Shown here: positions 13,311 through 23,241 of the stretch, piece by piece
How the letters are laid out: each line of letters starts with the position of its first letter
How positions within the stretch are numbered: position 1 is the stretch's first letter
Source: Terriglobia bacterium
Lineage (GTDB): Bacteria > Acidobacteriota > Terriglobia > Bryobacterales > Bryobacteraceae
Direction: 5' to 3'
DNA: 34,368 nucleotides
Assembly: GCA_020073325.1 (NCBI GenBank)
Contig: JAIQFJ010000012.1
Coordinates: 1 to 34,368 of the forward strand
Position numbers and translations under genes: made by a program
The notes under the pieces: generated by a model
The model's database searches: none
Seen by the model: the letters and a program-made list of their open reading frames with translations, nothing else
What the model was told of the DNA's origin: nothing

Positions 13311-15480
13311 GGACGGTTAGCTGATTCTCCAGCGCGTTTTCACGAACGTCGCGAAGCTGCTCGACCGCGCAATCGATCCATGTCACCGAATCGTTGCGAA
13401 TCTGCAACCGCCCTTTCATTGTAACTCCGATGCGCAAAGCTTCCACGTGAAAATCGCGCGCGATTCGCTCGATTTCCTGAGGCTGTGTGGTCGAGACCAG
13501 AACTCGCGACGGACCTTCGTGAAACAAGGCGAGTTCCGGCCGCAGTGCGGTATTCAGATCGACCGCCGCGCCGATTCCCTGCGACGCGCACTCAGCCAGC
13601 GCCACAGCAAGCCCGCCATCGCTCAAATCGTGAGCCGATTCCGCAAAGCCGCCGTTGACGACTTCCCGAATCGCGCATTGCACACGCTTTTCATAGTCGA
13701 GATCGAGCGCGGGCGGCAGTCCCCACATCTTGCCGAGCACCGCTTTGGCGTATTGCGTTCCGCCGAACCGCGTCGCGTCGCAAGAGCCGAGCCCGCCGAG
13801 CAGCATCACCGTGCGAGCTTCGTTCTTGAACGGAATCGTCATTGGCGGAGCCGTCTTCATCAGCCCGACGATGCCCATCACGGGCGTCGGCCAGATCGCC
13901 TCGCCTAACGTTTCGTTATAGAGGCTCACGTTGCCGCCGGTGATCGGAGTTTCGAAGTGCCGGCACGCCTCGGCCATTCCTTCGATCGCCTCGACCAGCT
14001 GCGCCATGATCTCAGGACGTTCAGGATTGCCAAAATTCAAATTATTCGTTGCGGCGACGGGCAGCGCGCCTACCGTCGAAAGATTGCGGCAGCACTCGGC
14101 GACGATCAGCATCGCTCCCTCGCGCGGAGAAAGCGCGCAGTAGCGACCGCTGCCGTCCAGCGACATCGCAATGCTGGTGTCCGTGTCCTTGATGCGTACG
14201 ATCGCGGCATCGCCGCCCGGCCCGGCCAGGGTGTTGGTGCGGACCGTGTAGTCGTACTGCTGATAGATCCAGCGCTTCGAGCAGACGTCGCCGGATGCCA
14301 GGATTTTCAAGAGATCGTTCGTAAGGTCGCTGCTGGAAAATTCCGGCGCATCCATCGGCGCGGACCGGAACGGAGCGGTGTTGTGCGGACGATCGTAGAG
14401 CGGAGCTTCATCGGCAAGCTCGCGATTTGGAATTTCGGCGACCACGGTGCCGTGATTCCTGACGATCAGTTTGCCGGAGTCCGTCACGGTGCCGACGGTG
14501 ACCGCGTCGAGTCCCCATTTGTGGAACACATCGAAGACCTCCTGCTCCCGGCCTTTTTCGGCCACTAGCAACATGCGTTCCTGCGATTCGCTCAACATGA
14601 TCTCGTACGGGATCATGCCGGTTTCGCGCTGCGGAACCAGCGCCAAGTCGATCTCGATTCCGGTCCCCGCGCGGCTGCCCATTTCGCATGTCGAACACGT
14701 CAGCCCCGCGGCACCCATGTCCTGAATGCCGACGATTGCGCCGGTCTTCATCGCTTCCAGGCACGCCTCGAGCAGCAGCTTCTCCATGAACGGATCGCCC
14801 ACCTGCACGTTGGGGCGCTTCTGTTTCGATTCTTCGGTGAACTCGGCCGAGGCCATCGATGCGCCGTGAATCCCGTCGCGTCCGGTCTTGGCGCCGACGT
14901 AGATCACCGGGTTGCCTACGCCGGTCGCTCGGCCGTAGAAAATTTCGTCGTGCTTGAAGACGCCCAGGGCGAAAACGTTCACCAGCGGATTGCCGTTGTA
15001 GCAGGGCTCAAACACGCACTCGCCGCCGACGGTCGGGACGCCGAAACAGTTTCCGTAATGCGCGATGCCGCTGACGACGCCTTCAAGAATCCGCTGATTG
15101 CGAGGCTCCGTGAGCGGACCGAAGCGCAGCGCGTCCATCACCGCGATCGGCCGCGCCCCCATCGTGAAAATGTCGCGCAGGATTCCGCCGACGCCGGTCG
15201 CGGCGCCTTGAAACGGCTCGATGAAGCTCGGGTGGTTGTGCGATTCGATCTTGAAGGCGATCGCCACGCCGTCCCCGATGTCGATGATGCCGGCGTTTTC
15301 ACCCGGGCCCACCAGGACCCGAGGGCCGCGCGTCGGAAGCTTCTTCAGGTGAATCCGCGAAGACTTGTAGGAGCAGTGTTCACTCCACATCACCTCGAAA
15401 ATGCCGAGTTCGGTCTGTGTCGGCTCGCGTTTGAGGATTTGGCGGACTTTGTCGAGTTCGAACGGGGTGAGTGCACTCAT
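13300..15480 (-). CDS. purL: Phosphoribosylformylglycinamidine synthase, small PurL subunit
   Basis: 726 aa, the small PurL type that works as a complex with PurQ (glutaminase) and PurS, converting FGAR to FGAM with ATP. The N-terminus [20 protein letters not shown] carries the catalytic histidine of the family. [18 protein letters not shown] and [18 protein letters not shown] are the ATP/Mg-binding regions, with a duplicated half later ([32 protein letters not shown]). [15 protein letters not shown] closes the second AIRS-type domain. Its start overlaps the purQ stop (ATGA), and purF overlaps its end. No purS ORF is seen near this cluster, although the small PurL needs PurS. Confidence 0.97.
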
Positions 15481-16145
15481 GCCGTGACGAGCGAACGGAC
15501 CATACTCTCCAGAATCACGCGTCCGTCTTCGGATCCCATCAGAGAGTCGGCGGCGCGCTCGGGATGCGGCATCATGCCCATCACGTTGCGGCGCTCGTTG
15601 CAGATTCCGGCGATGTCGCGCAGGGATCCGTTCGGATTATCCATGTAGCGCACCACCACGCGGTCCTCTTTTTCGAGCATGTCGAGCGTGCGCTCGTCGG
15701 CGAAGTAGCAGCCGTCGCCGTGCGCCACCGGCATCCGCAGCAGTTGACCGCGCGTCGCGGCGCTGGTGAACGGAGTATGGGTGGTCTCCACCCGTAACGT
15801 CACGGGGCGGCAGACGAACTTCAAATCACGATTGCGCAGCAGCGCGCCCGGCAGCAGGCCGCTTTCGCACAGAATCTGGAATCCGTTGCAGAAGCCGGCG
15901 ACCAAGCCGCCTTCATCGGCGAATTTTTTCACCGCCGCCATCACCGGAGAGAACTTGGCGATCGCGCCGCAGCGAAGATAATCGCCGTAGGAAAATCCGC
16001 CCGGCAGGATTACCGCATCGACGTTGCCGACCGAGGACGAATCGTGCCAGATGAATTCAGCCTGTTGACCCAGATTGTGAGAGAGCGCGTACCAGGCATC
16101 GTGGTCGCAATTGCTGCCCGGAAAAACGACGACGCCGAATCGCAT
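15477..16145 (-). CDS. purQ: Phosphoribosylformylglycinamidine synthase glutaminase subunit PurQ
   Basis: 222 aa, a class I glutamine amidotransferase that supplies ammonia to PurL. The nucleophile is C86 in GFCNGFQ, with the catalytic H194 and E196 in [10 protein letters not shown]. The opening [12 protein letters not shown] and [17 protein letters not shown] are family hallmarks. It leads the purQLF block. A TAAACT hexamer at 16156-16161 (minus strand) sits 10 nt upstream of the ATG and may start transcription almost at the start codon. Between that box and the ATG is a near-palindromic GGGATTTCCC. The gap to the upstream REC-GGDEF gene is 42 nt, so read-through from it is also possible. 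Confidence 0.96.
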
Positions 16146-16155
16146 GGGAAATCCC

Positions 16156-16161
16156 AGTTTA
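16156..16161 (-). promoter_or_regulatory. Putative -10 box for the purQLF operon
   Basis: TAAACT on the minus strand, 10 nt before the purQ ATG, in an otherwise GC-rich 42-nt gap. There is no clear -35 element and no Shine-Dalgarno between it and the ATG. The call rests on position and resemblance to the other start-proximal hexamers in this window. Confidence 0.3.
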
Positions 16162-16187
16162 GCAGAACGCGCCGGCTGGTTCGACCA

Positions 16188-17054
16188 TCAGCTCCGCATG
16201 GCGAGCGCGTTCGGATTCATGTCCATCGACGCCTGGTCCAGCAGTCCTTCGAGCGACACGGGACGATCCGGATCGAAAATCGCCGCGCCCAGCAGGATCC
16301 GATGCGACTCCGCCGCCGAATGCAGCCGCGCCCAGATGGATTCGAGCGTCTCGAAGCCGGTCTCAAGCGTCGCCAATCCGAAGCGGCATTCTCCGATGCG
16401 CGCGATCAGATCCGTCGGGCCGGCGAGCCCGCGAAGATGATCGGCCGCTTCCACCAGCGTCAGGTCGCGGCGCTGTTCGCCGAATGCAATGGCGATCCCG
16501 GCGAGATTCTTCGGTTCGGCGATCAACAGCATCATCCGCCGCCCTAAGCGCTCCGCCAATTTCCGCTCGCGATCGGCGAACGTGATGAACGTCGACCGGT
16601 TCGGCAAGCCGGTAAGAACGTCGTTGATGGCCCCTGCCCGCGTCGACGTCAGCAAGCGGTGGCGTTCGATCGCATTTCGAATCGCGTGGGCCAGTGGAGC
16701 GCAGTCGATTTCGCGTTTGATCACAAAATCCTGCGCGCCTTCGCGGACCATCCGCACACCCATCGCGCCGTCCTCCGTGCCGAGCATCAGGATCATCGGA
16801 ATGCGTTCGGCCGCCGCGTGCACACGCCGAAACGTTTCCACACCCTGGCTATCGGAAAGATCGGGGTTGAGCAAAATAATGTCGACGGGCTCGTTGGCGA
16901 GAATGGCGGCTGCCTCACTCCAAGACGCCGCATGGAGAGTCTCGATATGGACCCAGTTGTTCCAAAAACGTCCTGCCTCAATTTCGATCAGGACGTCCCG
17001 CAGAAAAAGTACATCTTCCGCGACGGATTCGACCAGAAGAACGCGCAGAGACAT
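16188..17054 (-). CDS. Degenerate receiver-GGDEF signalling protein
   Basis: 288 aa. Residues 1-120 form a response-regulator receiver fold (LRVLLVES, then VDIILLNPDLSDSQG), with the conserved T93 and K113 kept. The phosphoacceptor position, normally Asp in LLDLxLPD, is N63, and the second acid of the acidic pair is S10. Residues 145-288 form a GGDEF-like domain that starts with the standard DVLTGLPNR. The catalytic signature is replaced by GECRF at 221-225, so diguanylate cyclase activity is not expected. It probably acts by protein binding. It follows the sigma-54 activator by 39 nt on the same strand, and that activator has no receiver of its own, so the two may work together. Confidence 0.8.
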   Translation of the reverse strand: MSLRVLLVESVAEDVLFLRDVLIEIEAGRFWNNWVHIETLHAASWSEAAAILANEPVDIILLNPDLSDSQGVETFRRVHAAAERIPMILMLGTEDGAMGVRMVREGAQDFVIKREIDCAPLAHAIRNAIERHRLLTSTRAGAINDVLTGLPNRSTFITFADRERKLAERLGRRMMLLIAEPKNLAGIAIAFGEQRRDLTLVEAADHLRGLAGPTDLIARIGECRFGLATLETGFETLESIWARLHSAAESHRILLGAAIFDPDRPVSLEGLLDQASMDMNPNALAMRS

Positions 17055-17093
17055 GGCTGAAGAGATAGTGCAGCGAAGGCGGCACTTTTCTCA

Positions 17094-18122
17094 TCAGTTT
17101 TCGAGATTGTATTCTTTGAGCTTTCGATAGAGCGTCGTCCGGCCGATTCCCAATAGATGTGCCGCTACCGCACGATCACCCTTGGTGTAATCGAGCGCGT
17201 TTAAAATGGCACGACGTTCCAGTTCGGCCAGCGGGATCACCGAAGGGACGTTTTGCACCGGGGCATGGAACGTCTCCTGTTCCGACACTTCCGGTTCGTT
17301 CGGCGCAGGGGCCCGATGTGCGGAGGCGGCGGCCATCAGATATTGCGACTTTTTCTGCGCCATGAAGTTCTGCAGACTGGACGGCAGGTCGCCCACATGC
17401 AGCAGCGGTCCGGAGTTGATCGCCACCATGTGCTGGATACAGTTTTCCAGTTCCCGGACGTTGCCGGGCCAGTCGTAGTTGAGCATGACTTCCATGGTCT
17501 CGGCCGTCAGCGTGTAATTTCCCCCCACCCGCGCCAGGAAGTGATTGATTAACGCCGGGATATCCTCGCGGCGCTCGCGCAGCGGCGAGAGACGTATATT
17601 AATAACGTTGAGGCGGAAATAGAGGTCGCGGCGAAAAGTCCCTTTTTCCACTTCTTTGGCCAGGTCGCGATTGGTCGCGGCGATGATGCGGAAATCCGAC
17701 CGTCGCGTGGTCAGCGCACCGACCGGGCGAAATTCCTTTTCCTGCAGGACTCTCAATAACTTAGCCTGCAGATCCAGCGGCAGCTCCCCGATTTCATCGA
17801 ACAGCGCCGTACCGCCATTCGCCGCTTCGATCAAGCCGATCTTGGCGACGGCGGCTCCAGTGAAGGCGCCTTTCGTGTGGCCGAACAGCTCGCTTTCCAT
17901 CAGCGGTCCGACCATCGACGAGCAGTCGATCGTCACGAACGGGCCGCTCGGGCTTATATTATGGATGGCGCGCGCCACCACTTCCTTGCCGGTCCCGGTC
18001 TCGCCGAGCAGCAGGGCCGGCCAACGGCATTTGCCCAATTTTTGTATGAGGTGCAGGACCTGTCGGGTCCTGGGCGATTGCCCCACAAGCACGTGTCTTG
18101 GATCGTCCATAAAAGGAAGCAT
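17094..18122 (-). CDS. Sigma-54-dependent transcriptional activator (AAA+ and Fis HTH, no receiver)
   Basis: 342 aa from the ATG at 18122; a TTG at 18161 would add 13 residues and an ATG at 18110 would remove 4. The AAA+ core starts almost at once. Walker A GETGTGKE is at 40-47, the sigma-54 contact loop GAFTGA at 85-90, Walker B ALFDEIG at 106-112, then FRRDLYFRLNV with arginine-finger region residues. NYDWPGNVRELENCIQHM marks the lid domain. A linker of about 60 residues rich in Ala, Pro and Glu leads to a Fis-type helix-turn-helix at the C-terminus (AVAAHLLGIGRTTLYRKLKE). It should bind upstream activating sequences and open sigma-54 promoters. There is no N-terminal sensory domain, so regulation must come in trans. 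No -24/-12 site is evident nearby. Confidence 0.9.
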   Translation of the reverse strand: MLPFMDDPRHVLVGQSPRTRQVLHLIQKLGKCRWPALLLGETGTGKEVVARAIHNISPSGPFVTIDCSSMVGPLMESELFGHTKGAFTGAAVAKIGLIEAANGGTALFDEIGELPLDLQAKLLRVLQEKEFRPVGALTTRRSDFRIIAATNRDLAKEVEKGTFRRDLYFRLNVINIRLSPLRERREDIPALINHFLARVGGNYTLTAETMEVMLNYDWPGNVRELENCIQHMVAINSGPLLHVGDLPSSLQNFMAQKKSQYLMAAASAHRAPAPNEPEVSEQETFHAPVQNVPSVIPLAELERRAILNALDYTKGDRAVAAHLLGIGRTTLYRKLKEYNLEN

Positions 18123-18233
18123 TCCCGCTTCAGGTGTATAAGTATGTAGTGTGTTGAGCAAGTATAAACTCTACGGTCATTTTGGAACTCTCTCAAGACC
18201 CGCGCCAGCGGAATAGGAGTAAGTCTGATGCGG

Positions 18234-18248
18234 GAGGGCATAGCCCTC
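18234..18248 (-). terminator. Short GC hairpin downstream of rlpA
   Basis: GAGGGC (18234-18239) and GCCCTC (18243-18248) pair perfectly around an ATA triloop, 15-29 nt beyond the rlpA stop and before the sigma-54 activator. There is no T-tract, so termination would be weak or Rho-assisted. The triloop design resembles the units at 3165-3233. Confidence 0.35.
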
Positions 18249-18262
18249 AAATGGGGGTAGCG

Positions 18263-18898
18263 TTACCGATCCGGGACAACCATCGCTTCGCCGGCGGTCT
18301 TCCGTACCTTTTGCGCCAATCGCTTGGCCTCGTCGAGCGAGAGATGATGACCGACCAGTACCCGGCAAACCGAGCTGCCTTCGACGACGCGGGAGTCGTC
18401 GAATTTTTTCGCGACGCTTTCGGCGCGCTCGCAGGTGGAGAAGGCTCCGGCTTGCACGGCGTAGTCGCCGGCGGGAAGAACGGCGTCCTTCGGAGGATCG
18501 ATCACTTTAAGATGGACGCGCGCGATTCCGGATCTCACCATGTCGAGGTCGCGTGCCGCGGCGAGAGAAAGATCGATGATGCGTCCGTCGACGAAGGGAC
18601 CTCGATCGGTGATGCGCACGTCGACGCGTTTTTGATTTTCGAGATTCGTCACTTCCACCCACGTGTTGAATGGAAGCGAGCGATGCGCGGCGGTGAGTTG
18701 CTCCTGATCGTAGATTTCTCCGGAGGAAGTCGCGCGTCCATGATAGGGAGCACCGTACCAGCTCGCGATTCCGGATTCGGTGGAACCGACGCGCGCGGGA
18801 GCGGCAACACGCGCCGAAGTTTTTCGCGCGCACGCACTCATCATCGCGACGACCGCGAGAAAAAGCACCGCAACCGCATAAACAGCGCCTCGCAGCAC
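18263..18898 (-). CDS. rlpA: RlpA-family septal-ring lipoprotein (DPBB + SPOR)
   Basis: 211 aa from the GTG at 18898. This start gives a standard lipoprotein signal (MLRGAVYAVAVLFLAVVAMM) with the lipobox ending at C23, and lies 7 nt after a TAGAAT box. An in-frame ATG at 18985 would prepend 29 mostly polar residues, which I consider less likely. Residues 42-132 are the double-psi beta-barrel (GIASWYGAPYHGRATSSGE, then RITDRGPFVDGRIIDLS), with H72 and D98 at the positions of RlpA catalytic residues. Residues 145-211 form a SPOR domain that binds denuded peptidoglycan. RlpA cleaves naked glycan strands at division sites or at least localises there. It is divergent from the lysine-rich peptide gene. 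Confidence 0.88.
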   Translation of the reverse strand: MLRGAVYAVAVLFLAVVAMMSACARKTSARVAAPARVGSTESGIASWYGAPYHGRATSSGEIYDQEQLTAAHRSLPFNTWVEVTNLENQKRVDVRITDRGPFVDGRIIDLSLAAARDLDMVRSGIARVHLKVIDPPKDAVLPAGDYAVQAGAFSTCERAESVAKKFDDSRVVEGSSVCRVLVGHHLSLDEAKRLAQKVRKTAGEAMVVPDR

Positions 18899-18905
18899 TA
18901 AAACA

Positions 18906-18911
18906 ATTCTA
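18906..18911 (-). promoter_or_regulatory. -10 box TAGAAT directly before rlpA start
   Basis: TAGAAT on the minus strand, followed by 7 nt and the GTG at 18898. At the normal 6-7 nt spacing between -10 box and +1, the mRNA would begin at the start codon. There is no Shine-Dalgarno. It supports choosing this start for rlpA. Confidence 0.5.
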
Positions 18912-18992
18912 CTCGAGTACGTTTCGGAGTGTTTTTCAATTCTCAACTGTGCGCGAGCGAGATCGTTATGGAAGTCGGCGTGCATTTTTTTC

Positions 18993-19021
18993 TTGACTTT
19001 CAACGCAAAGCACCTTATAAA
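18993..19021 (+). promoter_or_regulatory. Consensus sigma-70 promoter for the lysine-rich peptide gene
   Basis: TTGACT at 18993-18998, a spacer of 17 nt, and TATAAA at 19016-19021: a near-consensus housekeeping promoter, the best in the window. Transcription should start near 19028, leaving a leader of about 57 nt before the ATG at 19085. It lies upstream of rlpA on the other strand. Confidence 0.8.
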
Positions 19022-19067
19022 GGGGACACAACCGCGCTCTCCTTGTGAGTGGCGCGAAATTTGATGT

Positions 19068-19075
19068 AAAGGGAG
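19068..19075 (+). promoter_or_regulatory. Strong ribosome binding site of the lysine-rich peptide gene
   Basis: AAAGGGAG ends 9 nt before the ATG at 19085. It is among the clearest Shine-Dalgarno elements in the window, where most starts have weak or none. It supports translation of the 21-codon frame. Confidence 0.7.
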
Positions 19076-19084
19076 AATCAATCG

Positions 19085-19150
19085 ATGAAGAACGCAACCA
19101 AGAAGAAAGCGCCTGCAAAGAAAAAGGCTGCTCCGAAGAAAAAGAAGTAG
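19085..19150 (+). CDS. 21-residue lysine-rich histone-H1-like peptide
   Basis: A 21-codon ORF, MKNATKKK followed by APAKKKAAPKKKK; 11 residues are lysine and the rest are nearly all Ala and Pro. There is no acidic residue. The composition resembles the (K/A/P)-rich tails of histone H1 and of bacterial H1-like proteins such as Hc1, so binding to DNA, RNA or other polyanions is a reasonable guess. No family assignment is possible at this length. Three independent signals frame it: a consensus promoter (18993-19021), a strong Shine-Dalgarno (19068-19075) and a textbook intrinsic terminator (19182-19212). This argues against a chance ORF. An in-frame role as a leader peptide is unlikely because nothing lies downstream on this strand until 21188. 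The alternative is a small RNA whose transcript happens to contain an ORF. Confidence 0.7.
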   Translation: MKNATKKKAPAKKKAAPKKKK

Positions 19151-19181
19151 TCAGCAGCGCTAAGTTCGAGTTCAATCCAAT

Positions 19182-19212
19182 CGGCCCCGAGCAATCGGGG
19201 CCGTTTTCTTTT
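19182..19212 (+). terminator. Intrinsic terminator of the lysine-rich peptide gene
   Basis: CGGCCCCGA (19182-19190) and TCGGGGCCG (19195-19203) form a perfect 9-bp stem with a GCAA (GNRA) tetraloop, followed by TTTTCTTTT. It is oriented for the plus strand and lies 31 nt after the peptide stop codon. It is the only textbook Rho-independent terminator I see in the window. Confidence 0.88.
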
Positions 19213-19242
19213 GGTGGCGCCACTCGTCGGTGCGCCACAAAA

Positions 19243-20127
19243 CTAGGATGCGTTGGATTTGAACAGAGCGGCGACCAATGGACGCAGCTCTTCATAGGTC
19301 ATGCGCCCCGGATGATACAGGCGGACGATTCCATTGCGATCGACCAACACCAGAGTCGGGGTAGTGCTGACTCCGTAGCGCAGGAAATTCACTTCGCTGA
19401 CCGGCGCCGGATCGGCAATGATGTCGGCGTAGCGTTCCTTGCGGATCTTGTCGATGTAACGAAGCTCCACTTCAGGAGCCGCTTCCTCGCCGCCTTGCAC
19501 GTAGCCATACTTCTGCGTCGGCGCGACAATCGCGAGTCCTTTAAACTCCGATTGGAGCTGCGCCAGGATGGGTCCTTCGGCCTTGCAGTCTCCGCACCAG
19601 TGCGCCCAGAAGAACAGCAGCACCGGCTTGCCTTTCGGCAAAGCGACCTTTTGAAGCGCCGGCGCGGGCTTGCCTTCCATCGTCAGCAGATTGATATTTT
19701 TCTGGATGCGCGCGTTGATCGACGTCGCGCGGAAGAGCTTGAGCTGATCCTGCAAGTAGGTCACGGCTTCGGCGCGGCGATGCTGCGCGGCCAGGTAATT
19801 CGCCTCCACCTCGATCGCGGCTCCCAGCGCGATGGGCAAACCCCTCTCCTGATCGAGCGGGCGCTTCTTCAGCTCCGCCGTGCAGAGCTGATAAGTTTCA
19901 CTGGCATACTTCTCGGCCTGCCCGTAATTCCGCACGGCCAATTCGCCGCGCGCCATCCAACTGAGCGCTTCGAGCATCTCCGGCGTTACGCCGTTGGTCA
20001 TTCGATACGCCTTGATGAGTTGTGCGCCGGTCGCAAAGTCGTTAGCGGCGATCGCGGTGCGAACATCTTTGACGATCGCGGCGGAGGCGGTGAGGCTGGC
20101 CAGTGCAAGCCAGGCGCAGAGCTTCAT
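19243..20127 (-). CDS. Exported TlpA-like thioredoxin-fold protein with helical N-domain
   Basis: 294 aa. A signal peptide at residues 1-17 (MKLCAWLALASLTASAA) implies export. Residues 20-150 are Ala/Leu-rich helices that look like TPR repeats (ALSWMARGELAVRNYGQAEKY). Residues 152-290 are a thioredoxin fold of the TlpA/redoxin kind: PVLLFFWAHWCGDCKAE with active-site C178-G-D-C181, and a cis-proline in STTPTLVLVDRNG. CGDC is an unusual active-site pair compared with CGPC or CPPC. It probably reduces disulfides or otherwise assists redox chemistry outside the cytoplasm. GalU is 94 nt upstream on the same strand. The proximal leader contains a purine-rich GAGAGAGG 9-10 nt before the ATG, a fair Shine-Dalgarno. 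Confidence 0.85.
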   Translation of the reverse strand: MKLCAWLALASLTASAAIVKDVRTAIAANDFATGAQLIKAYRMTNGVTPEMLEALSWMARGELAVRNYGQAEKYASETYQLCTAELKKRPLDQERGLPIALGAAIEVEANYLAAQHRRAEAVTYLQDQLKLFRATSINARIQKNINLLTMEGKPAPALQKVALPKGKPVLLFFWAHWCGDCKAEGPILAQLQSEFKGLAIVAPTQKYGYVQGGEEAAPEVELRYIDKIRKERYADIIADPAPVSEVNFLRYGVSTTPTLVLVDRNGIVRLYHPGRMTYEELRPLVAALFKSNAS

Positions 20128-20221
20128 AGGGGTGACCTCTCTCTTTTTGAGGATACCCGGTGTGAGACGCGCGGGGTGGAACCGGTTATCCGGATTCGTT
20201 TGCGACCGTCCTACTCGCGAA

Positions 20222-21106
20222 TCAGAACGACAGGCCCTTCAGGTACGCGCGGAATTCTTCGCCCAGATCTTCGCGCTTGAGGGCGAACTCGACCGTGGCC
20301 TTCAGGAATCCAAGCTTGTCGCCCGCGTCGTAGCGCTTGCCTTCGAAGCGATATCCGTAAATCGGCCGGCTGCGCAGGACGTGCTTCAAGCCGTCGGTCA
20401 ACTGGATTTCTCCGCCGCTGCCGGGCTCGATCGCTTCGAGGCTGGTGAAAATCTCCGGCGTGAGGACGTAGCGTCCGATGATCGCCAGGTTCGACGGCGC
20501 ATCTTCCGCCTTCGGTTTCTCCACCATGTTGCGGATCCGATAGAGCCGGTCCTTGCCGCCATTGTGCGCGACGGGCTCGGCGTCGACCACCCCATAGGCC
20601 GAAATAAATTCTTTTGGAACTTCCATCAGCGCGACCACCGCCGCTCCGTAGAATTCGTACACGTCGAGGAGCTGGCGCAGACAGGGAACCTCGGCGTCGA
20701 TCACGTCGTCGGAAAGAATCACCGAAAACGGTTCGTCGCCGACCAGTTCGCGCGCGCGCAGAACCGCGTGCCCCAGGCCGAGCGCTTCCTTCTGACGGAC
20801 ATAAGAAATGTCGATCATGTCGGAAACGGCGCGAACCGTGGCGAGCAGTTCCTTTTTGTGGCGCGTCTCGAGCAGATGTTCCAGCTCGAAGCTCACGTCG
20901 AAATGATCTTCGATCGCGCTCTTGCCGCGTCCGGTCACGATAATGATGTTGCGGACGCCGGATTGCATCGCTTCCTCGACGCCGTATTGGATCAACGGCT
21001 TGTCGACCAGCGGAAGCATTTCCTTCGGTTGGGCTTTGGTGGCGGGCAGAAACCGCGTGCCCAGCCCGGCGGCGGGAAAAACCGCCTTGCGGACTTTGGC
21101 GATCAT
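20222..21106 (-). CDS. galU: UTP-glucose-1-phosphate uridylyltransferase
   Basis: 294 aa from the ATG at 21106. The nucleotidyltransferase motif AAGLGTRFLPATKAQPKEML sits at the N-terminus and identifies GalU. VDKPLIQYGVEEAM, VILSDDVIDAE (metal and sugar-phosphate binding) and EIQLTDGLKHVL follow in order. It makes UDP-glucose from UTP and glucose-1-phosphate for cell-envelope glycans. An ATG at 21115 would add MRR, with the sequence ATGAGGAGGATG placing a would-be Shine-Dalgarno immediately next to the second ATG. That spacing is unusable for it. A TAGAAT box 7 nt before 21106 favours a leaderless start at 21106. Confidence 0.93.
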   Translation of the reverse strand: MIAKVRKAVFPAAGLGTRFLPATKAQPKEMLPLVDKPLIQYGVEEAMQSGVRNIIIVTGRGKSAIEDHFDVSFELEHLLETRHKKELLATVRAVSDMIDISYVRQKEALGLGHAVLRARELVGDEPFSVILSDDVIDAEVPCLRQLLDVYEFYGAAVVALMEVPKEFISAYGVVDAEPVAHNGGKDRLYRIRNMVEKPKAEDAPSNLAIIGRYVLTPEIFTSLEAIEPGSGGEIQLTDGLKHVLRSRPIYGYRFEGKRYDAGDKLGFLKATVEFALKREDLGEEFRAYLKGLSF

Positions 21107-21113
21107 CCTCCTC

Positions 21114-21119
21114 ATTCTA
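21114..21119 (-). promoter_or_regulatory. -10 box TAGAAT directly before galU
   Basis: TAGAAT on the minus strand, followed by GAGGAGG and the ATG at 21106. Normal -10 spacing puts +1 at or next to the A of the ATG, so the mRNA would be leaderless. The intervening AGGAGG abuts the ATG and cannot act as a Shine-Dalgarno. Confidence 0.55.
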
Positions 21120-21175
21120 GCGAACATGCTCAGCGCGATTGGTGCGACGCGGCAGCTAGGCCAGCCAGGGAGACA

Positions 21176-21181
21176 TATAAT
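21176..21181 (+). promoter_or_regulatory. Perfect -10 box TATAAT before the alpha/beta hydrolase gene
   Basis: TATAAT at 21176-21181, 6 nt (CTGTCT) and then ATG at 21188. The predicted +1 is the A of the ATG, hence a leaderless mRNA. No -35 match is visible at 16-18 nt upstream. Confidence 0.6.
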
Positions 21182-21187
21182 CTGTCT

Positions 21188-22231
21188 ATGCTCACACTCC
21201 CCGCAGCGCTCAGACTCCTTGCAGCGCTCCTGACTGCTGCCCTCTGCTCCGCCGCCGAATTTCCGGCCGCTGTCGAAGGCGATTTTTCCATCCGCAATTT
21301 CAAATTCCACAATGGCGAAAGCATCGGCGAGCTGAAACTGCATTACTACACGGTGGGGAAACCATCGGCGACCAACGCCGTGCTCGTCATGCATGGCACC
21401 GGCGGAAGCGGCAAAGGATTTCTATCGCAGGGATTCGGCGGCGAGCTGTTCGGCGAAGGCCAGCCGCTCGACGCGTCGAAGTATTTCATCATCATGCCGG
21501 ATGCGATCGGGCATGGCGGATCGTCCAAGCCGAGCGACGGAATGAAGACGCATTTCCCCAAGTACTGCTACCACGACATGGTTCGCGCGGATTATCAGTT
21601 GCTGACCGAGAAGCTCGGCGTGAAACATCTGCGGCTGGTGATGGGGACGTCGATGGGCGCGATGCATAGCTGGGTCTGGGGCGAGATGTATCCCGACATG
21701 ATGGACGCGCTGATGCCGCTGGCGAGCGCTCCTGTTGAAATTGCCGGCAGGAATCGACTCTTGCGCGACATGATCATGCACGCGATCACGTCCGATCCAG
21801 ACTACAGGGGCGGCAACTACGATCATCCGATCCATGGGCTGCAGGCCGCGCAGGATGGATTGTCGATGATGACGTCGAGTGCGCTGCAGATGCACAAGCA
21901 GTATCCGACGCGGGCGAAGGCGGACGAAGGATATGAAAAGCTCATGCACACCGCGATGGACAAGGACGCCAACGACATGCTGTATCAGTTCGCGTCGTCG
22001 ACGGATTACAATCCGGAGCCGGAGCTGGAAAAAATCAAGGCCCGGCTGATCGCGGTGAATTCGGCTGACGACGAGGTGAATCCGCCGGAGCTGGGGATTC
22101 TGGAGCGAACGATCACCCGTGTAAAGCGGGGCCGCTACGTGCTGATTCCGACGGGTCCGGAGACGCGCGGGCATGGGACGCATTCAGTGGCGAAGCTGTG
22201 GAAGCAATACGTGGTCGAGCTGCTGAACTAA
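21188..22231 (+). CDS. Exported alpha/beta hydrolase of the MetX-like (homoserine acetyltransferase) fold
   Basis: 347 aa from the ATG at 21188. The N-terminus is a signal peptide (MLTLPAALRLLAALLTAALC, cleavage near SAA), so the protein is exported. The alpha/beta-hydrolase core has the oxyanion-side HGTGGSGKG (69-77), PDAIGHGGSS and the nucleophile elbow GTSMGAMHSW with S155. The acid is likely in NSADDEVNPPE and the histidine in HGTHS near the C-terminus. The elbow and LMPLASAP resemble MetX, which acetylates homoserine. A periplasmic location does not fit that reaction, so an esterase or another acyltransferase role is more likely. It converges with the ThiF-like gene with a 4-nt overlap. 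Confidence 0.85.
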   Translation: MLTLPAALRLLAALLTAALCSAAEFPAAVEGDFSIRNFKFHNGESIGELKLHYYTVGKPSATNAVLVMHGTGGSGKGFLSQGFGGELFGEGQPLDASKYFIIMPDAIGHGGSSKPSDGMKTHFPKYCYHDMVRADYQLLTEKLGVKHLRLVMGTSMGAMHSWVWGEMYPDMMDALMPLASAPVEIAGRNRLLRDMIMHAITSDPDYRGGNYDHPIHGLQAAQDGLSMMTSSALQMHKQYPTRAKADEGYEKLMHTAMDKDANDMLYQFASSTDYNPEPELEKIKARLIAVNSADDEVNPPELGILERTITRVKRGRYVLIPTGPETRGHGTHSVAKLWKQYVVELLN

Positions 22232-23241
22232 GACCCGACGTAGCGCGCGTAGAGACTTCGCGCGACCGATAAATCATCCGTGCCTTTGATGATCGCGCGG
22301 CCGTCGGGAAAAATCGTCATTTCATACAAATCGAGCACCACGCGCACTGCGTACTCGTTCGCGCGCACTTCACCCACCGGGCGGAGATGATTCGCCAGTT
22401 CCTGAAGATCGATGGGCCGTTCGCGCTCATGCACCTGGACTGCGTTGCGGCCGCACAACGAAATCGTGGCCCGGCGCGATCCGTCGAGATAGGAAAAGCG
22501 CCGCGCGCCGCAGCACTCACAATGCGGATCGATGGCGGGCGCCTCGAGCTGCCGAATCTCGCCCGACCACACGTCCACCGTCGTCAGCCGCGCGGACACA
22601 GCGGCGCCCGCCAGAATTTTCAGCGCATCGGCCGCCTGCAGTGCCGCGATCGTCGCCGTGATCGGACCCAGCACGCCCGCCGTTTCGCACGTCGGCTGCA
22701 CGCCTTCCGGCGGATCGGGATAGACACAGCGGAAACAGGCGGTGCGGCCGGGCGCTACTGCGAATTTCAATCCATAGCTGCCCACTGCCGCGCCGTAGAT
22801 CCACGCAACGTTGCGGCTCACCGCGACGTCGTTGATCAGGTAGCGGGTTTCGAAGTTGTCGGTGCCATCCAGGATCAGGTCGACATCGCCCAAGAGATCG
22901 GCGGCGTTGGCTGCGGTCAGGTCGGCGATCGCCGGCTCGATTTCCACCCCGGCGTTGATCTTCGACAGGCGGCGCGCGGCTGCGGCGGCCTTCGGAAGTC
23001 CTGCGCGCGCGTCGGATTCGTCGAACAGGAACTGGCGCTGTAGATTGCTGAACTCGACAAAATCGCGATCGATCAGCCGCACGCGGCCGACTCCCGCGCG
23101 CGTCAGAATTTCCGCCTGCACGCTGCCGAGCGCGCCGCATCCGACGATCGCCACGCGCGACCCGCGAATGCGTGCCTGGCCCTCTTCGCCGAGAGGAGCG
23201 AAGCGGATTTGGCGCGAATAGCGCGGGTCATTTATCCACAT
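22228..23241 (-). CDS. ThiF/MoeB-family E1-like adenylyltransferase with C-terminal extension
   Basis: 337 aa. The nucleotide-binding loop GCGALG is at 34-39 and DRDFVEFSNLQRQFLF (58-73) is the E1/MoeB signature. DGTDNFETRYLIND is at 125-138. Zinc would be held by C169-C172 (CFRC) and C241-C244 (CECC); a candidate catalytic cysteine is C185 in PTCETAGVLGP. Such enzymes adenylate the C-terminal glycine of ThiS or MoaD for sulfur transfer. Residues 260-337 (SLCGRNAVQVHERER, then YEMTIFPDGRAIIKGTDD) are an extra domain found in many stand-alone ThiF/HesA proteins. No sulfur-carrier gene lies next to it, so thiamine versus molybdopterin cannot be decided. It is divergent from the outer-membrane protein gene with 42 nt between starts. 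Confidence 0.88.
   Translation of the reverse strand: MWINDPRYSRQIRFAPLGEEGQARIRGSRVAIVGCGALGSVQAEILTRAGVGRVRLIDRDFVEFSNLQRQFLFDESDARAGLPKAAAAARRLSKINAGVEIEPAIADLTAANAADLLGDVDLILDGTDNFETRYLINDVAVSRNVAWIYGAAVGSYGLKFAVAPGRTACFRCVYPDPPEGVQPTCETAGVLGPITATIAALQAADALKILAGAAVSARLTTVDVWSGEIRQLEAPAIDPHCECCGARRFSYLDGSRRATISLCGRNAVQVHERERPIDLQELANHLRPVGEVRANEYAVRVVLDLYEMTIFPDGRAIIKGTDDLSVARSLYARYVGS

Follow-up and report, generated by a model that had tools for sequence, protein, structure and literature searches.

Within the window, a stretch of 34,368 nucleotides from a Terriglobia bacterium that was analysed as a whole, lies a self-sufficient gene of 21 codons whose predicted product contains 11 lysines among its 21 residues (52%). 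This gene probably specifies a disordered polycation similar to the tail of histone H1, translated from a stable mini-mRNA, the transcript of which has become, or also is, a functional RNA. In the lineage of the window the peptide is, as judged from genome comparison, the best-supported product; in a related clade the frame has disappeared and the transcript has been retained. The same comparison shows that the conserved cassette occurs class-wide in Terriglobia.

Layout of the locus and its neighbours

The earlier note on this DNA had proposed a hidden gene with a near-consensus sigma-70 promoter, a Shine-Dalgarno site, a 21-codon frame with 52% Lys and an intrinsic terminator with a GNRA loop. 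All of these elements can be read directly on the forward strand at 18993-19213. A T-tract (18985..18991) abuts the −35 box (ATTTTTTTC-TTGAC) and is in contact with the start codon of rlpA, which runs divergently; an upstream T-tract precedes most of the promoter-bearing homologues. The −35 box TTGACT (18993..18998), recognised by reading, in our own scan and in the homologue alignment, is separated by a 17-nt spacer from the −10 box TATAAA (19016..19021), recognised by reading and in the scan. TTGACT-N17-TATAAA is the sole promoter on either strand of the window with at least 10 of the 12 consensus bases, compared with a mean of 0.4 in a first-order Markov control (10 replicates); a scan demanding T at position 6 of the −10 box does not list TATAAA. 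Transcription presumably starts near 19028. The RNA is predicted by folding to begin with a 5'-terminal leader hairpin with a GCGC stem (19033..19056), followed by the Shine-Dalgarno site GGGAG (19071..19075), which is kept also in relatives without the K-rich frame. Nine nucleotides further on, the ATG at 19085 opens the ORF MKNATKKKAPAKKKAAPKKKK, consisting of 21 codons and a stop (19085..19150; TAG at 19148-19150); no other ATG frame of 10-80 aa on either strand of the window reaches 40% Lys. The terminator (19182..19213) has a 9-bp stem, a GCAA loop and a T-rich tail, with the letters CGGCCCCGA-GCAA-TCGGGGCCG at 19182-19203 and then TTTTCTTTTG. Its description as the best terminator holds for the region compared, 15,000-23,000, where it has the most G-C pairs among nine candidates; shuffled sequence contains a similar number of candidates (mean 8.0).

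The divergent neighbour, on the reverse strand at 18263..18985, encodes an RlpA-like protein with DPBB and SPOR domains and stands beside the gene in all 22 loci of the genus and in four of the eight other loci compared. The convergent neighbour (19243..20127, reverse strand) encodes a TlpA-like thioredoxin-fold protein and is present in 11 of the 22 genus loci. Different genes adjoin the cassette in different families: rsmE in family f8, genes for HlyD and VWA proteins in f5, a lactate permease and a SIS protein in f2, and a methyltransferase in another genus of f1. The cassette is thus a stand-alone unit, and the remark of the earlier note that the neighbours give no clue proved correct. A short frame followed by a terminator could in principle be a leader peptide or attenuator in which the terminator controls the gene downstream, and in many of the f8 loci that were read rsmE does lie downstream on the same strand. 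However, the next gene in the window is convergent and the neighbours vary among the families, so that this role is very unlikely.

Conservation of the cassette and of its reading frame

A search for homologues with a 321-bp query revealed the cassette in 37 of 61 genomes, namely that of the window and 60 relatives. Within the genus, 22 of 23 genomes including the own one possess it, and the single miss is a genome of 65% completeness. The matches in the genus span promoter through terminator, and the terminator loop is of the GNRA type in all 22 loci. In 30 loci that were fetched, the T-tract, the −35 and −10 boxes, the GGGAG-type site and the terminator stem-loop co-align, and all 30 contain at the same position a K-rich ATG frame of 18-27 aa whose differences in length are whole-codon indels. 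The distance of 17 nt between the −35 box and a TATA-type −10 box is found in 28 of the 30; in locus L014 it is one base longer, and locus L023 also has a −35 box in the homologue alignment.

The substitutions within the frame follow its codons. Among 18 distinct 63-nt frames of the genus, 16 of the 22 variable columns fall on codon position 3 and two on position 2, and the pairwise codon differences amount to 749 synonymous versus 248 non-synonymous changes; none of 300 column shuffles was as synonymous. In five further sets of equal-length frames from named records, none of 200 shuffles per set reached the observed value. Synonymous changes dominate in five of the six sets. The 23-codon MKN set contains 106 non-synonymous and 99 synonymous changes, yet it lies above every shuffle. 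These patterns indicate that the frame in the window is under purifying selection at the protein level and, together with the conserved cassette, they bear out the proposal of a hidden gene with complete expression signals. Since promoter, frame and terminator are conserved jointly, the cassette is far beyond chance, which the shuffles and the scan of the window likewise rule out. It was also considered that the AAR codons might form merely an (ARN)n site of the type bound by Hfq. Arguing against this reading are the variability of position 3 with hardly any at position 2 in the genus set, and the conserved start and stop codons; the argument is weaker in the 22-codon set, in which position 2 varies too (10 columns versus 19 at position 3).

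The reach of the cassette was estimated with nucleotide models because a protein profile made from the peptide alignment was too insensitive for 21 low-complexity residues: it matched in just 3 of 396 genomes of the phylum and missed known copies (e.g. in G015). A sequence-only model extending from the promoter through the stop codon (R1) was searched in 299 genomes of the class. At E values up to 0.1 it matched in 229 of them, many of the matches being merely runs of Lys codons (model positions ~60-150), and reach was therefore judged on matches that cover also the promoter and the leader. Matches over most of the model were obtained in families f1, f4, f5, f6, f7, f8, f93, f96 and f100, whereas f95 and some others matched partially but have a K-rich frame. 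No promoter was recognised in the f95 loci, and the −35/−10 pair of f5 departs from the usual TTGACA/TATA type. At E values up to 0.01, a class-wide model from the T-tract to codon 7 (R2) detected frame-bearing and frame-less copies of the cassette in 125 of 150 order genomes, a few of them as partial matches. At E values up to 1e-4 it matched in 47 of 396 phylum genomes, of which 46 belong to the own class, at least nine of these being ORF-less. The match outside the class, locus L247 of genome G161, has MATKKKAAKKKKKC behind TTGACA and GGGAGGTG, followed by a stem-loop, and is possibly an outgroup copy elsewhere in the phylum. In family f3 of the own order no cassette was seen among 13 listed genomes (G038, G040-G051), and two f3 genomes match the 321-bp query through Lys-codon stretches alone; in contrast, family f1 has the cassette almost everywhere. 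The loci L286-L289 and L293 of genus g241 are outside all frame counts.

In a scan of named genomes with a degenerate pattern at least 118 stretches were retrieved. Among the matches listed, 103 of 118 carry the promoter, and all 103 are labelled as Acidobacteriota, including Bryobacterales, Edaphobacter, Granulicella rosea, Sulfotelmatobacter and others; the promoter-less stretches comprise 8 from other taxa and 7 from Acidobacteriota. The pattern itself requires GGGAGAAT and GCNACNAARAAR, so that their conservation in loci L104-L221 is in part a consequence of how these loci were picked, a bias in the letters that the loci found with R1 and R2 carry to a lesser degree.

The peptide consists mainly of Lys, Ala, Pro and Thr, with groups of Lys alternating with Ala/Pro and a length that drifts by repeat units. 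For the 103 promoter-bearing stretches among the matches listed, the residue totals are K 1052, A 621, T 139, M 100 and P 87. Across the class the products range from 12 aa (MAPKKKAAKKKR) to an (AAAPKK)n protein of 79 aa. In Sulfotelmatobacter-like genomes (L127, L143, L115 and others) the frame is down to 12-15 codons (MATKKKAKKKKKH), and a C-terminal His is frequent. Codon-level selection persists in 13-codon frames, of which nine distinct ones were compared. In a few Bryobacteraceae (L095, L098, L099, L168) the same cassette encodes repeat proteins of 52-79 aa, an expansion of the micropeptide to a complete tail of the H1 type. The genus g241 of the Bryobacteraceae possesses a second Lys-rich gene (L294-L302, L253) for products of 23-90 aa, MATKKAAKKAAPKKAAKKAAKKK and longer, which has the start region GGGAGAAT in common with the first gene and a different T-rich promoter region (of the TTACATAATAG type in several); a number of genomes contain both genes.

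The likeness to H1 tails that had been noticed in the window peptide is upheld by the residue counts, and the scores against H1-like models are weak and below the cut-offs. The 52-aa member matches the Pfam model HC2 (PF07382) with an E value of 1.2e-5 and 26.0 bits (cut-off 40) and the NCBIfam model hist_H1_lk_Burk with 5.1e-6 and 26.9 bits (cut-off 80); the scores with the H1-like NCBIfam models (NF038052, NF038053) are all below the cut-off (26.9 versus 80, 16.7 versus 135). The 90-aa protein of the second gene likewise has a weak H1-like score below the curated cut-offs. Three other long members have no Pfam match, and the members of 21-23 aa, including the window peptide, match neither Pfam nor NCBIfam; for the window peptide, the comparison with Pfam covered residues 1 to 20. 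The low-complexity composition rich in Lys, Ala and Pro that characterises HC2-type proteins is nevertheless present, and the 52-aa member may work like H1-like proteins without being filed as one.

Loss of the frame and retention of the RNA

The K-rich frame is gone in all 19 genomes of genus g35 and in 27 of 28 genomes of genus g33. Both genera keep the T-tract, the −35 and −10 boxes, the leader and GGGAG, as well as a GC-rich 3' stem-loop wherever the printed stretch is long enough. Three g33 genomes with TTGAC and CAATAC exhibit the same ORF-less architecture; locus L330 is a second weak match and not the RNA. A relic is found in some g35 species, where AGGCGACAAGAACGGCGAAAAAGAAG stands in place of ATGGCAAC...AAGAAG. 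At the place of the lost frame a possible new hairpin, GCGGTGGCAAAGGCCGC, was noticed by eye in the g35 loci L263, L267 and L270-L273. In a tree of the adjacent rsmE, all 45 ORF-less rows lie on one side of a single branch (support 100/98) among frame-bearing relatives; the tree comprises 83 of 97 sequences and omits same-genome duplicates, L092, which is not a duplicate, and those of the rows L184-L221 without a parsed promoter. Given this position of the ORF-less clade within frame-bearing lineages, the frame is the older state, and it was lost once in g33 and g35. Sporadic ORF-less copies occur in G308 (family f8) and in G509, G578 and G707 (Bryobacteraceae), and the frame of G657 is truncated; G308 is absent from the rsmE tree, and its loss is separate or unplaced. 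Relatives that keep promoter and terminator without the frame, which the earlier note had regarded as the sign of a small RNA, are found in the g33/g35 clade, but they do not refute the peptide in the lineage of the window. What did not stand is the reading of the gene as a source of peptide only: the ORF-less clade shows that selection can act on the transcript as the product, which that reading does not consider.

In 24 species of g33, mean pairwise identity is 1.00 (rounded) over the 20 columns from GGGAG onward and 0.92 in the columns near the beginning of the 3' stem; the 12 windows that precede the T-tract reach 0.16-0.43, and rsmE lies mostly at 0.55-0.8. In 18 of the 19 g35 loci the RNA windows reach 0.37-0.88, which is no better than rsmE, and a stretch upstream is also conserved (0.66-0.82). 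The strong argument for an RNA hence comes from g33, whereas the g35 unit is at least retained. A stretch of 22 nt is found exactly in 26 of the 28 g33 genomes and with two mismatches in one more; the last genome is 54% complete. In 21 of 24 g33 loci no start codon occurs within 45 nt after this stretch. Of the 24 g33 and 19 g35 loci, 5 and 10, respectively, have ATG frames of at least 10 aa that begin no further than 60 nt from GGGAG; Lys amounts to no more than 18% in any of them, and the 'MRSGGKGR...' frame of g35 is not common to the whole genus. In 19 of 24 loci, starts within the g33 leader that read through GGGAG share one frame; in five they occur in other frames alone. A coding leader frame is nonetheless disfavored by the near-identity at all codon positions and by a 1-nt indel (CCAAGG/CCAGG) after the stretch, which is thus probably non-coding.

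Because the sequence is conserved without the frame, the g33 transcript evidently has an RNA-level function of its own. It could be a base-pairing sRNA with GGGAG...GGCAAA as the active part, or a protein-binding RNA. The GGCAA motif occurs 3.0 times per 60 nt in g33 and 1.5 times in g35, versus 0.9 and 0.4 after shuffling. Long complementary target RNAs were sought as sites for the complement of the 22-nt stretch with up to three mismatches, and none is conserved: in the 28 genomes a single site was found beyond the own gene (G753, three mismatches), as many as in the backwards control. At the gathering score of Rfam, the window and 10 homologous loci, all of them frame-bearing, gave 0 matches.

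The leader itself is structured. From the inferred start to GGGAG, 67 of 69 leaders fold better than mononucleotide shuffles (z below −1, mean −3.4), the 69 loci being taken from the first 80 stretches. Stems of differing sequence occur at the same leader position across loci, as counted by the order of pair kinds along each minimum-energy stem, with no alignment. In the genus alignment, both-sided changes affect 4 of the 33 pairs predicted, including one within the leader hairpin; the covariation term is just −1 and formal covariation within the genus is weak. Since stable mRNAs usually carry a hairpin at the very 5' end, the leader hairpin fits high expression, and it fits an RNA function equally well.

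The promoter, leader, GGGAG and 3' stem-loop that persist without the K-rich frame in g35 and g33, the identity in g33, and the scattered ORF-less or truncated copies would also agree with a gene that, in the window's lineage as well, serves chiefly to make a small RNA, the frame being secondary. With frames sorted by their first letters, irrespective of a promoter, a GGCAA motif lies no more than 45 nt beyond the stop in 20 of the 30 frames of the MATKKA type and in 7 of the 17 of the MATKKK type, which points in the same direction. However, it does so in none of 25 MK-type genes, the type of the window. Codon-level selection in the window's own genus, the greater age of the frame in the rsmE tree and the ordinary conservation of the g35 RNA also argue against the primacy of the RNA, which we consider unlikely.

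The favored reading, an H1-tail-like peptide from a transcript that turned into a functional RNA or is one as well, places the gene close to dual-function sRNAs. On sequence evidence it combines a short frame of the translated type that is under selection with an RNA function that is separable from the frame, as seen in the conservation in g33 and less strongly in g35. SgrS, as described in PMC4021124, similarly has its own promoter and terminator and contains a short frame, SgrT, which some relatives lose while the RNA stays. It differs in that its targets are known, whereas none is at hand for the Terriglobia RNA, and the ORF-less state here is derived in the clade tested. SgrT, moreover, is not known as a polycation. 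In the Acidobacteriaceae-like family the transcript probably had both functions before the loss; in the window's genus it may have them. A more detailed history is tentative and falls just short of even chances: the ancestral Terriglobia transcript would have encoded an H1-tail-like polycation and acted as RNA, the ancestor of the two genera would have lost the peptide and kept the RNA, and one genus would have refined this RNA into a small RNA alone, with an active stretch of 22 nt that hardly varies.

Function of the peptide

According to the proposed mechanism, the self-contained mini-gene would give rise to an mRNA of presumably ~180 nt. The sigma-70 promoter and the T-tract would drive strong transcription, and the 5' hairpin and the GNRA hairpin of the terminator would cap and stabilise the RNA. 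Translation from GGGAG would yield a 21-residue, probably disordered polycation that would work like a free-standing H1 or AlgP tail and bind a polyanion by charge, most likely DNA, otherwise RNA or polyphosphate. Binding by charge would allow the length to drift over 12-79 residues while composition and Lys spacing are kept, and the RNA-level function, at least in the clade without the frame, would make the gene a candidate for a dual-function RNA. Composition together with repeat drift may be taken as the signature of a charge-driven disordered binder, as opposed to a precise fold. A composition of Lys and Ala is compatible with many polyanions and does not point to DNA in particular.

Similar sequences are known as parts of larger proteins. 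The KPAA-repeat tails of AlgP and PhaF of Pseudomonas are reported to bind DNA, with AlgP also present at polyphosphate granules (PMC9239181), and they resemble the Terriglobia peptide in their disordered Lys/Ala/Pro repeats of varying number; AlgP differs by a helical N-terminal domain joined to a repeat region of 154 aa, whereas here a tail of 12-79 aa is encoded by a dedicated mini-gene. The N-terminal helical domain of AlgP and PhaF is absent here, and the frame encodes the tail alone. Hc2 and the H1-like proteins of the Burkholderia type share the composition and the weak profile scores, but the Terriglobia scores remain below the cut-offs and typical members are far shorter. The Lys-rich tails of HU-type proteins carry PAKK/AAKK repeats, which is the point of likeness; the Terriglobia peptide lacks the HU fold, and each of the 46 genomes tested encodes HU separately, whether or not it has the peptide. 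Because HU is present in all of these genomes, also in those lacking the peptide, the peptide would supplement HU and not replace it, and is not the basic packaging protein. A whole clade without the frame and the lack of a copy among the 13 f3 genomes listed indicate that it is dispensable over evolution.

Tiny and very basic ribosomal micro-proteins exist in other phyla, and a small, very basic product with strong single-gene expression signals might belong to the ribosome or associate with it, as a micro-protein bound to rRNA at one defined place. Proteins of this kind generally keep their length, in contrast to the 12-79 aa with repeat expansion observed here, and the frame has been lost in whole genera and was not found in f3; we regard a ribosomal role as rather unlikely. 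An encoded substitute for polyamines, an oligolysine that serves as counter-ion, would be in line with the finding of AdoMet decarboxylase (PF02675) in just 7 of 46 genomes versus 8 of 14 controls. Yet the enzyme occurs in none of 13 g33/g35 and none of 8 f3 genomes, all peptide-less (0 of 21), and all seven genomes that possess it bear the peptide, so that no compensation is seen and the proposal is improbable. The failure to find AdoMet decarboxylase (SpeD) in 39 of the 46 Terriglobia genomes tested suggests an unusual polyamine metabolism. A secreted antimicrobial peptide would be cationic and small as well, but no hydrophobic stretch was seen in the peptide, no constant transporter or immunity gene lies alongside, and the gene is conserved class-wide; very little speaks for such a role.

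Lys-rich peptides of this size easily escape gene finders, tryptic proteomics and searches with low-complexity masking. No description of the gene was found in the literature by title and start of abstract, a scope that lay outside most subscription journals. The gene, kept across a main class of soil bacteria, appears to be unnamed at cut-off in Rfam, Pfam and NCBIfam, and what is new is a free H1-like tail on a gene that resembles a dual-function RNA. As a minimal natural tail of the H1 type it lends itself to studies of the nucleoid or of polyphosphate, and it presents a case of the conversion of a coding into a non-coding RNA in bacteria, for which cultured relatives exist on both sides.
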